From positions 1 to 64,000 of the forward strand of contig JAIVEQ010000012.1 of NCBI GenBank assembly GCA_023838465.1: 64,000 nt of DNA. The letters run 5' to 3'. Positions 39,413 to 63,234 of the stretch are shown here, piece by piece. The position numbers were made by a program, and so were the translations under genes. The DNA comes from Candidatus Thiodiazotropha sp. GTDB taxonomy: Bacteria > Pseudomonadota > Gammaproteobacteria > Chromatiales > Chromatiaceae. The notes under the pieces were generated by a model, which saw only the letters and a program-made list of their open reading frames with translations, did not search any database and had not been told where the DNA came from. Position 1 is the first letter of the stretch; each line of letters begins with the position of its first letter.

Positions 39413-39700
39413 TCACTGCTCCTTCAATGGCAGGGCACGAAGGTTTTTTACTTCCTCGCTGACTACTTGACCGCGTCGTTTGAGGAGGTTTACTTCCCGC
39501 TTAAGTCCAAGCACCCTGCCCATTCCAGCTATTACACCCAAAATGACTCCCATCCCCAGAGCAGCGGTCACAATCAATGATAACGGAAGCTCTCGGCTAC
39601 CAAAGTAGTAGTTTACCTCTACCAAGTCAGCATTGAGCACGGTAAAGACCGCACCCAGCATCATGATTAGAATAACAACAAAGAGTTTAATGAATCGCAT
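39413..39700 (-). CDS. lapA: Lipopolysaccharide assembly protein A domain protein
   Basis: This 95-residue protein has two membrane helices (about residues 3-22 and 41-62) joined by NADLVEVNYYFGSRELPLSL, the DUF1049/LapA pattern, and a basic, coiled cytoplasmic tail. It is the usual partner of lapB. Only 15 bp separate its ATG from a 149-bp repeat element (39716-39864), so its promoter may lie in or beyond that element. Confidence 0.9.
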   Translation of the reverse strand: MRFIKLFVVILIMMLGAVFTVLNADLVEVNYYFGSRELPLSLIVTAALGMGVILGVIAGMGRVLGLKREVNLLKRRGQVVSEEVKNLRALPLKEQ

Positions 39701-39715
39701 CAGACATTCCGATTT

Positions 39716-39864
39716 AACCTAGAATCCACAGTTGAACATGGATTTTCCACAAATTCATGTAGCATCACAAAGCTTATCCAATGGGTGCGGGGATAATCCA
39801 TTATTTGATGCTGCATTTCATTACCTTACGTCAGGTATCATTGGTCAACTGCGGAATCTAGGTT
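39716..39864. mobile_element. 150-bp MITE-like element, copy 1
   Basis: The ends AACCTAGAATCCACAGTTGA (39716-39735) and TCAACTGCGGAATCTAGGTT (39845-39864) are inverted repeats with two mismatches. The body (GAACATGGATTTTCCACAAA and so on) is closely matched over its whole length by 63077-63226. The TTAA-like flanks may be a target duplication. There is no coding capacity; it is a non-autonomous element directly upstream of lapA. Confidence 0.8.
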
Positions 39865-40076
39865 TAAGCCTCCCCATGGAAGACCATTCTCGCCTACTGA
39901 CGATCAGTTTGAAATAGCCAAGATGATGGAAGGTAGATGGAGAAAGTGAGGATGCCTGTTACGTCACAATTGTTTTCACTGATTCGTGATTACAATAACG
40001 AGCAGGGGGGGTATCCGTGAGAACGCCGGACGACCGATTTTACCAGTTAACCAGACCACTAGTATGGTGTCATAGT

Positions 40077-41078
40077 CTAGGCATAGGTATCCAACAGACC
40101 CATACCGTCAACCATCCTCACTCCAGCCTCCCCGGTGAATGACTCATGAGGTGATAATTCATCGCCAATATGTCTACCCGAACCCGATTCAGCCTTTCCA
40201 TCTGCTGTTGATTCACCCGTTTGCTGCTGGCCAACATCGACATTTGCAAGATTGAGATTGATCTCTCCAAACATCTCCCTAAGGCGGGGAATTGATGCTT
40301 CCAGTGCCTCACGAGTAGGTGCTTGAGCTGCCACAAAGCTGACAGTGGTCTGGTCATTCTGAAGTGATATCTTTATCTCCAATGGACCTAGATTGGGAGG
40401 AGTCAACTTGATTTCGGCTTGTTGGATATTTTGACTGACCATCCACTGAATTCTTTCTCCAACTGCCTTGTCCCAACCAGGTTGCCCCACAGGCATCTCC
40501 AGTGGCATAAGCATCGTGGGTCTGGCAGCTTGGCTCGTTGTAGACGGCTGTTGAATGGCGACCGCTGAGTATTGACTGACAGACTCAGCTACTCTCCCTG
40601 CATCCAATAACAGCTTGCTTTCCTCACCTGATGGGACAGCAACAGGCAGGTTTATCGATTGATCTGCTTGAAAAAGTCTTTGAGTAAGAAATTCTGGTTG
40701 CAGTGGCTGTGTGGCTCTTAACTGACTTCCAAAGTCTGTGACTTGTTCAACTCTGGGTATCTGTACCTGGTCAGTCAAAACCGGCAAGGATTTGCCGTCA
40801 ATGAGTGGCTGGAACGGCAACACCGTGCCATCTTTGGCTAAAATCATAGGACTTGGAGCAGCAGTATCAACCCCCGGCTGTAGACTTAGCAGCAGTTGTC
40901 CATCACCCTCCTGTACAAGTAACTCTTGTAAGGCCTGGTAGAATGGAATACCCATTGCCATCCCTTCCGTAGTGGCCTCCAGAAGGCTGCTATCGCTATC
41001 ACCTGAAGTGGTTGTTTGAAGATTACCACCCTGAATCTGATTCATTGTCGGTATCTGAGCCATGGCCAAACCTGTCAT
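40077..41078 (-). CDS. fliK: Flagellar hook-length control protein (FliK-like)
   Basis: This 333-residue protein has a long, poorly conserved Gln/Ser-rich N-terminal part and a C-terminal FliK domain (about residues 200-290): WDKAVGERIQWMVSQN, IQQAEIKLTPPNLGPLEIKIS, VSFVAAQAPTREALEASIPRLREMF. FliK measures hook length and switches export specificity. No other flagellar gene is near, so it is either a scattered fliK or a second FliK-like protein; the domain itself is clear. Start: the first codons MTGLAMAQIPTM offer two further in-frame Mets. Confidence 0.8.
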   Translation of the reverse strand: MTGLAMAQIPTMNQIQGGNLQTTTSGDSDSSLLEATTEGMAMGIPFYQALQELLVQEGDGQLLLSLQPGVDTAAPSPMILAKDGTVLPFQPLIDGKSLPVLTDQVQIPRVEQVTDFGSQLRATQPLQPEFLTQRLFQADQSINLPVAVPSGEESKLLLDAGRVAESVSQYSAVAIQQPSTTSQAARPTMLMPLEMPVGQPGWDKAVGERIQWMVSQNIQQAEIKLTPPNLGPLEIKISLQNDQTTVSFVAAQAPTREALEASIPRLREMFGEINLNLANVDVGQQQTGESTADGKAESGSGRHIGDELSPHESFTGEAGVRMVDGMGLLDTYA

Positions 41079-54475: not shown

Positions 54476-54842
54476 GGGGGCGACGTAGGCTTCGACGGGG
54501 GTTACAAAACCTGAAGTGCATGTCGAGGGGCAGAGTACCTCGTAAAACCAACTGCAACCTTATAGTTGCCAACGACGACAACTACGCACTCGCTGCTTAA
54601 TACCCAGTAGGGTGCCGTCTGACTGGAGCCGTGCCTATGCGTCCAGCTTTTCAGGCGTCATATCTCATTAGGATCGCGTTGAAGCTCGTCCGGGGCAGAA
54701 ACGTTAAAACCTAACCGGAATCGCTTGTTGCGCGCCCTGTCCGTCGGGTGGCAGCCGGCAAGATATAATAGACAGGACTAAGCATGTAGAACTTTTGGCA
54801 GAGGACTCGCGGACGGCGGTTCGAATCCGCCCGCCTCCACCA
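54476..54842 (+). ncRNA. ssrA: tmRNA (SsrA)
   Basis: The 5' end GGGGGCGACGTAGGCTTCGACG and the 3' end TTCGAATCCGCCCGCCTCCACCA pair as the tRNA-like acceptor (GGGGGCG with CGCCTCC), with an encoded CCA. The resume codon GCC at 54568 opens the tag ANDDNYALAA, ended by TAA at 54598-54600. The length of 367 nt is typical. It rescues stalled ribosomes together with SmpB. Confidence 0.97.
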
Positions 54843-58571: not shown

Positions 58572-60044
58572 GTGAGATTCATCACAACCATATTCATCTC
58601 TCTCTTTCTGCCATCCATCGCTTTTGCAACCGGAGGTGGAGAGGATCATCTTGATTTGACCAACCATTGGGTTGGATTTACCGCTATTGGGATATTTGTA
58701 GTCGCCTATCTGTTGGTGATGGCCGAGGAGTTCACTCACCTCCGAAAATCCAAACCCGTGATCCTTGCTGCCGGTATGATATGGGGACTGATCGCCTGGT
58801 ACTACCACTCTCACGGCATGCCCCATGCGGCTGAGGAGATGGTGCGCCACAATCTGCTGGAATATGCAGAGCTGATGCTCTTCCTGCTGGTGGCAATGAC
58901 CTACATCAACGCCATGGATGAGCGAAATATCTTTGAGAAGCTGCGTTCCTGGCTGGTCGGCAAGGGATTCGGTTTTCGCAAGCTGTTCTGGATAACCGGT
59001 GTTCTTGCCTTCTTTATATCCCCGGTTGCAGACAATCTGACCACCGCCCTACTGATGTGTGCCGTAGTCCTGGCTGTTGGCGGGACCAATACAAAGTTTG
59101 TACTGCTCGCTTGTATCAATATTGTGGTTGCCGCAAATGCCGGTGGCGCCTTCAGCCCTTTTGGTGACATCACTACACTGATGGTATGGCAGAAGTCTAT
59201 TGAGACAGCCCAGGGCAGTGTCGATTTCTTGTCCTTCTTTGCGCTATTTATCCCCTCTCTCGTCAATTGGCTGGTTCCTGCATCCATCATGACTTTCGCC
59301 GTGCCAAATGTAAAACCAGAAGGGGGTGGCGAGGATGTCGAGATGAAGCGCGGTGCAAAACGCATCATCGCCTTCTTTTTGGCAACCATCGTGACTGCTG
59401 TCAGCTTCCACAACTTTCTGGGTATGCCCCCTGTGATCGGCATGTTGACCGGCCTGGCCTATCTTCAGTTCTTTGGCTTCTATCTGAAAAAGACCTTCCA
59501 CAAGGAGCACCCACAATTCAGTAAAGCTGACCTTGTCGAAATGGAACACGACGGACAAATGGGAGACATGGTCTCCTTCGATGTCTTTAACAAAGTGGCT
59601 CGAGCAGAGTGGGATACCCTGCTTTTCTTCTATGGCGTGGTGCTTTGTGTCGGTGGCCTTGGCTTTATCGGTTACCTGGCCGTAGCTTCTGAGGTGATGT
59701 ATAACCAGTGGGGTATGGCACTGGAGCTCTCGCAAACGATGAATGAGACACCCGCCAATATCATGGTTGGCATACTTTCCGCCATTGTTGACAACATCCC
59801 GGTGATGTTCGCTGTACTGACCATGATGCCCGATATGTCCATGGGACAATGGTTACTGGTTACCCTGACCGCTGGTGTAGGTGGCTCGATGCTCTCAATT
59901 GGCTCAGCAGCAGGTGTCGCTCTGATGGGACAAGCACGGGGTAAATATACCTTTTTCGGTCATCTCAAGTGGATGCCTGTTATAGCTCTGGGCTATGTTG
60001 CCAGTATCATGACCCATCTGTGGGTTAATGCGGGCAGCTTTTAA
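58572..60044 (+). CDS. nhaD: Na+/H+ antiporter NhaD (copy 1)
   Basis: This 490-residue antiporter of the ArsB/NhaD family has a signal-like N-terminus (MRFITTIFISLFLPSIAFA) followed by about 12 helices. Family motifs: MAEEFTHLRKSKPVILAAGMIWGLI, DNLTTALLMCAVVLAV, NAGGAFSPFGDITTLMVWQK, and SIVDNIPVMFAV-like IVDNIPVMFAVLTM. GTG 58572 is chosen because AGGG lies 8 bases upstream and the signal segment starts there; the frame is open to 58413. It expels Na+ and supports pH balance. A paralog follows directly. Confidence 0.9.
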   Translation: MRFITTIFISLFLPSIAFATGGGEDHLDLTNHWVGFTAIGIFVVAYLLVMAEEFTHLRKSKPVILAAGMIWGLIAWYYHSHGMPHAAEEMVRHNLLEYAELMLFLLVAMTYINAMDERNIFEKLRSWLVGKGFGFRKLFWITGVLAFFISPVADNLTTALLMCAVVLAVGGTNTKFVLLACINIVVAANAGGAFSPFGDITTLMVWQKSIETAQGSVDFLSFFALFIPSLVNWLVPASIMTFAVPNVKPEGGGEDVEMKRGAKRIIAFFLATIVTAVSFHNFLGMPPVIGMLTGLAYLQFFGFYLKKTFHKEHPQFSKADLVEMEHDGQMGDMVSFDVFNKVARAEWDTLLFFYGVVLCVGGLGFIGYLAVASEVMYNQWGMALELSQTMNETPANIMVGILSAIVDNIPVMFAVLTMMPDMSMGQWLLVTLTAGVGGSMLSIGSAAGVALMGQARGKYTFFGHLKWMPVIALGYVASIMTHLWVNAGSF

Positions 60045-60218
60045 TATTCTGTCAACCTAATAATATTGGATGCTGCTAGCCAGGAAGTGGCTAGCAGTGC
60101 CTCGAAGGAAATGCCCTATACAAATCAATTTCCCTTTGATCTTAGGCGTTATTCTCGAATTACATTTTGATATACAGGTAACATCAATTACTTCTTAAAT
60201 AACAATTTGTCCGGTGGT

Positions 60219-61658
60219 ATGAAGAAACTGACAGTTTCGGTTGCATTGATCGGCTTAATACCCAACCTGGCGTCGGCAGATCATATGTCAGCCAGCGGCT
60301 ACAGTATGAGTACTCATTGGGTTGGTTTACTCAGTGTATTCATCTTTATTCTTGCCCTGATAGCAGTCACACTCGAAGAGTTTATTGAACTGCGAAAGTC
60401 AAAACCCATGCTCTTTGCTGCGGGGATCATATGGGGACTCATCGGTTGGTATGCCCATGAGAACGTGGGCGGACATGCTGCTGAGCAGGCACTCCGCCAC
60501 AGCCTTTTGCAGTATGCGGAACTGATGCTATTCATTCTGGTGGTGATGACCTACATTAACGCCCTGGCTGAACGACGGGTCTTTCTGTCGCTTCGTACTT
60601 GGGTAGCTCACCGTCAATATAGCTACCGACACCTCTTCTGGACCACAGGCCTGATAACCTTTTTTCTCTCACCCTTTCTCGATAACCTATCGACTGCGCT
60701 GTTGATGGGAGCTGTGATTCTCAATCTGGAAAGAGACAATCAGCGTTTTGTCACACTCTCTTGCATCAATATCGTCCTCGCTTCAAATGCAGGTGGTGCT
60801 TACAGCCCATTCGGGGATATCACGACACTGATGGTTTGGCAGCAGGATATTGTCAGCACAACCGGGCGGGTTGACTTCTTCTCCTTCTTCTCACTGTTTT
60901 TACCCTCATTGATCAGTTATCTGGTCCCTGCCGGATTCATGCATTTTGCCATCCCCCCAGGCAACCTTACCGTCACCCAGGAACAGGTACAGATGCGGCG
61001 CGGTGCAAAAGGTATCATGGCACTGTTTCTATTGACCATTGCCACAGCGGTCTTTTTTCAAGGTCAATTAATGCTGCCTGCAACGATCGGTGTGATGACA
61101 GGCCTCTCCTATCTACAGTTCTTTGGCTATTTTCTTAAAAAGACCCATAAACCGAGCGAGGGGCAGATCACTACCTCTGAATCACCCGATTTTTCTGTGG
61201 TGGTTGAAAACCGACAGCCATTCGATGTCTTTTTAAGAGTGGCAAGATCGGAGTGGGACACGCTACTGTTCCTGTGCGGGGTCATACTCTGCGTCGGTGG
61301 TCTTGGTTATATGGGTTTTCTGACTGTAGCCTCTGAATTGCTCTATATCCAATGGGGGGCTACGGCGGCTAACGTCTCTATAGGTGCGGCTTCCGCGGTT
61401 CTGGAGAATATCCCTACCATGTCAGTGGTACTCAATATGCGGCCGGAGATGTCACTGGGTCAATGGCTACTGGTGACTCTGACAACAGGGATCGGTGGCA
61501 GCCTGCTTTCCATCGGTTCTGCCGCTGGCGTTGCTTTAATGGGGCAGGCCAAGGGAAAGTACACTTTTTTTGCACACCTGCGCTGGACACCCGCCATAGC
61601 CCTGGGTTTTTTACTCAGCGTTGCATGCCACCTTTGGCTCAACGCCAGTCTATTCTGA
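60219..61658 (+). CDS. nhaD: Na+/H+ antiporter NhaD (copy 2)
   Basis: This 479-residue paralog of the preceding gene starts MKKLTVSVALIGLIPNLASA (signal-like). It keeps LEEFIELRKSKPMLFAAGIIWGLIGWY, DNLSTALLMGAVIL, NAGGAYSPFGDITTLMVWQQ and VLENIPTMSVVLNM. In the last motif a Glu stands where copy 1 has Asp (DNIP to ENIP), which might change ion handling. It is shorter in the loop between helices 8 and 9. The 174-bp gap to copy 1 has no terminator, so both may be co-transcribed. Confidence 0.9.
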   Translation: MKKLTVSVALIGLIPNLASADHMSASGYSMSTHWVGLLSVFIFILALIAVTLEEFIELRKSKPMLFAAGIIWGLIGWYAHENVGGHAAEQALRHSLLQYAELMLFILVVMTYINALAERRVFLSLRTWVAHRQYSYRHLFWTTGLITFFLSPFLDNLSTALLMGAVILNLERDNQRFVTLSCINIVLASNAGGAYSPFGDITTLMVWQQDIVSTTGRVDFFSFFSLFLPSLISYLVPAGFMHFAIPPGNLTVTQEQVQMRRGAKGIMALFLLTIATAVFFQGQLMLPATIGVMTGLSYLQFFGYFLKKTHKPSEGQITTSESPDFSVVVENRQPFDVFLRVARSEWDTLLFLCGVILCVGGLGYMGFLTVASELLYIQWGATAANVSIGAASAVLENIPTMSVVLNMRPEMSLGQWLLVTLTTGIGGSLLSIGSAAGVALMGQAKGKYTFFAHLRWTPAIALGFLLSVACHLWLNASLF

Positions 61659-63041: not shown

Positions 63042-63076
63042 ATGCCATCCACTCAGGACAATCAAAACAGGTATTG

Positions 63077-63226
63077 AATCTAGAATCCGCCGTTGAACAT
63101 GGATTTTTCACAAATTCATGTAGCACCCCAACGCTCACCCAATGGGTGTTGAAAAAAATCCATTATTTGGTTTGCTGTTTCATTACTTTACGTCAGATAT
63201 CAGCGGTCAACTGCCGAACCTAGGTT
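63077..63226. mobile_element. 150-bp MITE-like element, copy 2
   Basis: The ends AATCTAGAATCCGCCGTTGA and TCAACTGCCGAACCTAGGTT are imperfect inverted repeats, and the body matches 39716-39864 closely from end to end (GTTGAACATGGATTTT-CACAAATTCATGTAGCA and ATTACTTTACGTCAGATATCA). It lies between the convergent prkB and gloB ends, just after the terminator. Confidence 0.8.
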
Positions 63227-63234
63227 GAATACGA

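Follow-up and report, generated by a model that had tools for sequence, protein, structure and literature searches.

The elements at 39718–39862 and 63079–63224 of the window, the whole 64,000-nucleotide stretch of Candidatus Thiodiazotropha sp. DNA analysed here, appear to be IS1380-type MITEs that are moved in trans, combine an insertion-sequence 5′ half with a conserved hairpin acting as a folded strand, have had the hairpin top deleted, and are near-neutral at lapA; taking these parts jointly, we consider the reading likely. Specifically, elements without a transposase gene and with ends CCTAGAWTCCGCAGTTGA would owe their movement in trans to an IS1380-family transposase, and insertion would duplicate a WTNAW target of 5 bp. 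Of the full-length element (about 237–239 bp), one half would be an IS1380 5′ end including a CACCC-nnn-GGGTG palindrome, and the other half a conserved hairpin of ~120 nt, missing from the six complete IS1380 elements examined. As a folded single strand, in a transcript or a transposition intermediate, the hairpin may help the MITEs to persist or spread. A deletion of ~94 bp between short direct repeats in the arms would have removed the hairpin top from the window copies, and copy 1 would most likely lie in the lapA leader RNA with the ribosome site intact, close to neutral in effect.

The window contains two shortened copies of one element

The sequence-only reading had described a MITE-like family of two copies, at 39716–39864 and 63077–63226, matching along their whole length. 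The match holds (83% identity over query positions 3–151), and both copies have inverted ends, which are 18 bp long and close to the consensus end. The bounds are corrected to 39718–39862 and 63079–63224, and copy 1 ends 17 bp, not 15 bp, from the lapA start codon. The termini are CCTAGA...TCTAGG in copy 1, with TTTAA at either flank, and TCTAGA...CCTAGG in copy 2, with TTGAA at either flank. With up to three mismatches allowed, the end motif occurs four times in the window, against a shuffle mean of 0.09, and none of 100 shuffles reaches four. The features of the two copies are as follows.

39713–39717, no strand: left target duplication TTTAA of copy 1 (sequence; single copy in the empty site of genome G011)
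39718–39862, plus strand: MITE copy 1, 145-bp shortened form, upstream of lapA (sequence, genome matches)
39718–39735, plus strand: left terminal inverted repeat of copy 1 (end-motif scan)
39845–39862, minus strand: right terminal inverted repeat of copy 1 (end-motif scan)
39863–39867, no strand: right target duplication TTTAA of copy 1 (sequence)
63074–63078, no strand: left target duplication TTGAA of copy 2 (sequence)
63079–63224, plus strand: MITE copy 2, 146-bp shortened form, between convergent genes (sequence, genome matches)
63096–63148, plus strand: remnant hairpin and TCACCCA..GGGTG palindrome of copy 2 (match to covariance model R1, E 1.1e-4)
63225–63229, no strand: right target duplication TTGAA of copy 2 (sequence)

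The element belongs to a larger family in the host genome and genus

The proposed two-copy family is refuted by a genome-wide copy count, which gave 34 distinct end-paired stretches in the fetched loci of this genome, 20 of them with exact 5-bp target duplications. Every exact duplication reads WTNAW, 10 further stretches have four of five bases duplicated, and WTNAW stands on each side in 29 of the 34. The element has 83 genome matches at E ≤ 10, one element often yielding several. The sizes 239, 145–146 and 102 bp account for 24 of the 34 stretches, and one 94-bp stretch with unlike flanks (L015) may be a chance pair. An ORF-based check placed 27 of 28 copies outside any ORF of at least 90 aa. 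The MITE-like character is borne out by the inverted ends, the 5-bp duplications, the many copies, and an exact empty site in G011. Sister subfamilies with ends CCTAGAAACGGCAGTTGA and CCTAGAATCCTCAGTTGA are also present in the host, down to 64 bp (for example G000:C4:38879-39017, G000:C20:8113-8348 and G000:C48:22403-22466).

A 153-bp query matches 11 of 56 genomes at E ≤ 1e-3, host included, and all belong to one genus. Copy 2 was seen only in the host and G002 among the 20 genomes in which the neighbouring gene was found, a comparison that leaves out G012 and G016, where this gene was not found; in G011 the sequence beyond the neighbouring gene is not collinear.

The ends and one half of the element resemble IS1380 elements

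Locus L139, on a contig titled Opitutaceae (Verrucomicrobia), encodes a 476-aa transposase, P0001, which scores 183.4 bits with NF033539, the IS1380 model of NCBI (cut-off 180). The frame ends at 1431 and an identical 18-bp MITE repeat lies at 1441–1458, the other end being off the contig. L139:1-1458 thereby joins a Verrucomicrobia-titled IS1380 transposase to the same 18-bp end as that of the gammaproteobacterial MITEs. A protein search with P0001 gave matches in 22 of 369 Gammaproteobacteria, and six complete gammaproteobacterial IS1380 elements of 1681–1703 bp with CCTARAW ends were found. Exact 5-bp duplications flank three of these (L202, ATGAT; L208, TTTAA; L224, TATAA), and two of the three fit WTNAW, TATAA falling outside it. 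The flanks agree at four of five positions in L203 (TTCAA, TTGAA) and are unlike in L205, and L204 is cut by a contig end.

A CACCC-nnn-GGGTG palindrome lies ~85 bp from the 5′ end in L202–L205 (counted by eye), where it would code for HPxGE near the transposase start; P0001 has IHPLGE. The MITE L018 has its palindrome 74 bp away from its right end, also counted by eye. Because this palindrome is common to the MITE and the IS1380 5′ end, we infer that this half of the MITE corresponds to an IS1380 5′ end.

Searches with PF13701 and P0001 gave zero IS1380 transposase matches in the host genome, and PF13701 across the genus gave matches in 3 of 22 genomes, namely G017 and G020 with fragments and G014 with a weak match below the cut-off. 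Present mobility of the family is therefore putative. An autonomous partner within the host was rejected, PF13701 having no match in its genome. In G017, a CCTAAAA-ended stretch with hairpin matches (L057:900-1314) adjoins an IS1380-like transposase fragment.

The other half forms a covarying hairpin

Among the matches listed, 232–240-bp elements of several named groups fold alike, with a shared layout of left end, long hairpin, GTAGCG or similar, and small palindrome. An end-motif scan of the named genomes gave at least 115 stretches, and 38 elements chosen from 79 were aligned by sequence only. Across the 52 predicted pairs, 92.0% of cells are paired, against 73.7% in shuffles and 35–42% in slid controls, where prediction of the structure from the same alignment, together with kinship, favours the pairing score and the size of the gap exceeds what these alone would give. 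Furthermore, 36 of the 52 pairs changed on both sides, and none of 500 shuffles reaches any of five measures.

The covariance model R1 was built from 31 elements. Searched with R1, the complete IS1380 elements gave no match in L208 and L224 and weak matches of short-palindrome size in L202–L205 (E 0.2–0.5), and a hairpin inside the six complete elements was accordingly rejected. In another four loci, L057, L058, L062 and L216, where the transposase match is partial or weak, R1 matches a different part of the locus (E ≤ 1.1e-4). An Rfam search of ten loci (eight with full-length hairpin elements, two with the insertion sequence only) at E ≤ 1 gave four matches, none on an element, and at the gathering score there was none on the window copies.

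Similar hairpins occur in elements with other ends

With eight candidates scored per genome, R1 matches 116 of 369 Gammaproteobacteria at E ≤ 1e-3 (98 of 314 good-quality genomes and 90 of 271 genera). A mirrored model, R2, made by reversing these 31 stretches, has 32 pairs where R1 has 30 and equals it in information content; it has no positive control and matches 0 of 369. In a phylum sample, R1 matched 67 of 398 genomes at E ≤ 1e-4; 29 of the matching genomes are outside the class, 27 of them from one family. No match to three elements from other genomes was found in plasmids, phages or E. coli.

Many R1 matches lie in elements with ends other than CCTAGA, including TATACCCGT..ACGGGTATA, AGTACTCTTTCAAGG followed by GATTCAGTTGG, GGAACCTCTGATTAATTC, and others. 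A rough motif sort assigned 10, 15 and 5 loci to the TATACCCGT, AGTACTCTTTCAAGG and GGAACCTCTGATTAATTC end types and left the rest unsorted; this sort has low sensitivity, some known CCTAGA-type loci having escaped it. A sequence-only profile of the CCTAGA-type hairpins matched 64 of 69 R1-selected loci at E ≤ 1e-3 and zero reversed loci, missing L285, L302, L303, L304 and L311. Because the 69 loci were picked by R1, this result bears on the nature of the match, not on its frequency. Among the 64, three (L252, L253 and L255) belong to the CCTAGA type, as L256 probably does, having a CCTAGA-like flank.

With these four left out, the cores of 41 loci (26 unsorted, the others divided 6, 5 and 4 among the three named types) are 94.1% paired, against 67.2% when shuffled; both partners changed in 21 of 23 pairs, and 0 of 500 shuffles reach the observed values. 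Ten columns are invariant in this alignment of R1-selected loci. By eye, four loci with AGTACTCTTTCAAGG ends (L258, L266, L269 and L270) seemingly have a second hairpin after the shared core.

Mismatches in the hairpin are strand-asymmetric

With the arms aligned under a scoring neutral between G–T and A–C, 78 CCTAGA-type hairpins have 431 G–T and 143 A–C cells. More G–T than A–C is found in 71 of them, the reverse in 2 and ties in 5, and 12 of 13 host groups lean the same way, the Arabian9 elements being reversed (3 G–T, 6 A–C). A column-based count in the 38-element alignment gave 170 G–T and 32 A–C. In 61 loci taken as other-end there are 281 G–T and 164 A–C cells (43 versus 13 loci), or 269 and 160 (42 versus 13) without L256; placement by the sequence profile superseded that by a strict score cut, which had covered 13 loci with 25 G–T and 20 A–C.

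Since a fold of one strand tolerates G–T better than A–C, the excess points to a folded single strand. Selection on one folded strand, RNA or single-stranded DNA alike, is the simplest reading that the excess suggests among these related copies, and strand-biased C-to-T mutation could partly account for it. We tentatively propose that the hairpin core with its conserved bulges (GGCAAGGCG..AAtRG..CyATT..CAACGCnGCC) is a functional module shared by many gammaproteobacterial MITE families with unrelated ends, acting as folded RNA or single-stranded DNA and acquired and kept because it aids their spread or survival.

A rather unlikely alternative is that the hairpin has no function and its arms stay complementary through template switching, in which one arm is recopied onto the other. 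DNA palindromes are known to be corrected in this way, and hairpin tops have repeatedly been lost in the genus, so that the top is dispensable to a copy already inserted. However, unpaired bases and the helix register are kept as the helices vary (none of the 41 cores from R1-selected loci departs from AGGC and AAC), a mirrored model of similar pairing matches 0 of 369 genomes against 116, and G–T exceeds A–C on one strand, all of which argues against a functionless palindrome. It is very improbable that the mover is a non-IS1380 transposase whose ends are only CCTAGA-like. Such an enzyme would fit the lack of an IS1380 transposase match in the host and the occurrence of this type of hairpin core in differently ended elements; yet the identical 18-bp end stands beside an IS1380 transposase, complete IS1380 elements make 5-bp duplications, two of whose three exact cases read WTNAW, and the MITE shares its palindrome with IS1380.

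The hairpin top was probably deleted in place

Both window copies are shortened forms of the 239-bp element, the 145-bp form being the 239-bp form minus ~94 bp. One site carries 239 bp in G001, G016 and G010 and 145 bp in G008, with the remaining sequence nearly alike, indicating deletion in place. The G008 junction lies between GATTT repeats, one in each arm of the hairpin; a different junction, at AAATCC, is found in L055, and the 102-bp copies have further ones. Copy 2 still matches R1, with 5 nt left where the model has 101 positions for the hairpin top, and copy 1, too reduced, gives no R1 match at E ≤ 10.

A further R1 match in the window, at 59156–59222 (E 0.35), is weak and was set aside as chance. 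Judged by eye, window positions 59061–59360 resemble the gene at 60207–61658, both of which would code for ...SPFGDITTLMVWQ... of a membrane transporter, and probably represent a tandem duplicate of it. A tmRNA gene lies at 54476–54842 on the plus strand.

Copy 1 probably lies in the lapA leader

Pfam identifies lapA (PF06305), lapB (zinc ribbon and TPR) and pyrF, with a FliK-like gene upstream. The features at this site are as follows.

39413–39700, minus strand: lapA (PF06305)
39707–39711, minus strand: CGGAA, likely lapA ribosome site, intact (sequence, inference)
39885–39898, minus strand: genus-conserved block AGTAGGCGAGAATG upstream of lapA, putative promoter (21 of 21 upstream regions evaluated)

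A pattern located the lapA start in 21 of 22 genus members, G006 being left out. The element is upstream of lapA in two of these 21, the host and G002, and the other 19 have no end motif within 260 bp upstream of lapA. This does not support an old, conserved function for the element here. The block AGTARGVGARAATG lies 43–48 bp before lapA in the 19 element-free genomes and at a distance of 198 bp in the two carriers; in the host, copy 1 has pushed the AGTAGGCGAGAATG block 150 bp further away. A sigma-70 consensus scan of 39600–40100 gave zero matches (shuffle mean 1.3); this is a weak test, as the conserved block is also unmatched, and it reveals no promoter in either the element or that block. 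We take AGTARGVGARAATG to be the promoter because it is conserved, and if it is, copy 1 falls within the lapA leader RNA. Copy 1, between the conserved block and the lapA ribosome site, therefore probably sits in the leader.

In the empty-site comparison, G011 has an exact empty lapA site with a single target copy, reading GGAGGC-TTAAA-TCGGAATGTCTG-ATG. The insertions in the host and G002 share site, orientation and deletion form and are 90% identical. In flanking 150-bp steps, the host is nearer G011 in 20 of 23, with one tie and two nearer G002; identity per step is 90.0–100% for host and G011 and 80.5–97.3% for host and G002. As G011 is mostly closer to the host and yet has an exact empty site, the insertion probably predates the split, and its precise loss in G011 is the simplest reading.

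The empty site in G011 would also follow if that genome never had the insertion, the element having arrived separately in G002 and the host or been passed by recombination. This is possible, though we think it unlikely, given that host and G002 agree in site, orientation and deletion form at 90% identity and that the host is nearer G011 than G002 in 20 of 23 steps (one tie, two the reverse). The sequence-only reading had raised the possibility that copy 1 supplies the lapA promoter, which is unsupported, no sigma-70-like match being present in the element in what is a weak test. That copy 1 supplies or tunes this promoter, and is kept for regulation, would accord with its position 17 bp from the start codon, its retention in two species, and the promoters borne by MITEs that are described in the available part of a review (PMC10969869). 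We nevertheless regard a regulatory role as quite improbable: the element has no sigma-70-like match (a weak test, to which the conserved block likewise responds with none), the conserved upstream block is retained, G011 lacks the element, and the element is unseen in 19 of 21 evaluable genomes. A MITE beside lapA is in itself ordinary.

Comparison with known systems

REPINs and REP sequences are dispersed structured palindromes, defined by mobilisation via a REP-type transposase. The present elements are likewise dispersed structured palindromes but have inverted ends and 5-bp target duplications.

ISEcp1 is a member of the IS1380 family. According to the portions of the sources available, ISEcp1 has the left end CCTAGATTCTACGT and 5-bp duplications (PMC7864471), and IS1247 is 1672 bp long with IR 16/13 and DR 5 (PMC3281130). 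The window MITEs begin with CCTAGATTC like ISEcp1 (PMC7864471, available portion), and their 5-bp duplication is as in ISEcp1 and IS1247 (PMC7864471, PMC3281130, available portions). Unlike these family members, the MITEs have no transposase gene and carry a long hairpin that is missing from the six complete IS1380 elements searched.

None of the open-access papers searched contained the end or hairpin sequence of the element, and none joined 'miniature inverted-repeat' with Thiodiazotropha; the term 'IS1380' is missing from the available text of the MITE review (PMC10969869). A covarying hairpin in differently ended elements, in about one third of the sampled Gammaproteobacteria and with no Rfam match in the scanned loci, is unusual. 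Its recurrence suggests a functional structured module common to non-autonomous elements and gives a concrete sequence to test; screens for structured RNA will meet such elements, whose hairpin tops can vanish in place. As far as the available parts of the sources describe them, Correia/NEMIS, QMITE and MITEPye1 are similar in being short and multicopy, with inverted ends and target duplications, and in lying mostly outside ORFs and forming hairpins (PMC10969869, PMC11578231). The elements described here differ from these prokaryotic MITEs in that a covarying core is common to elements with unlike ends.
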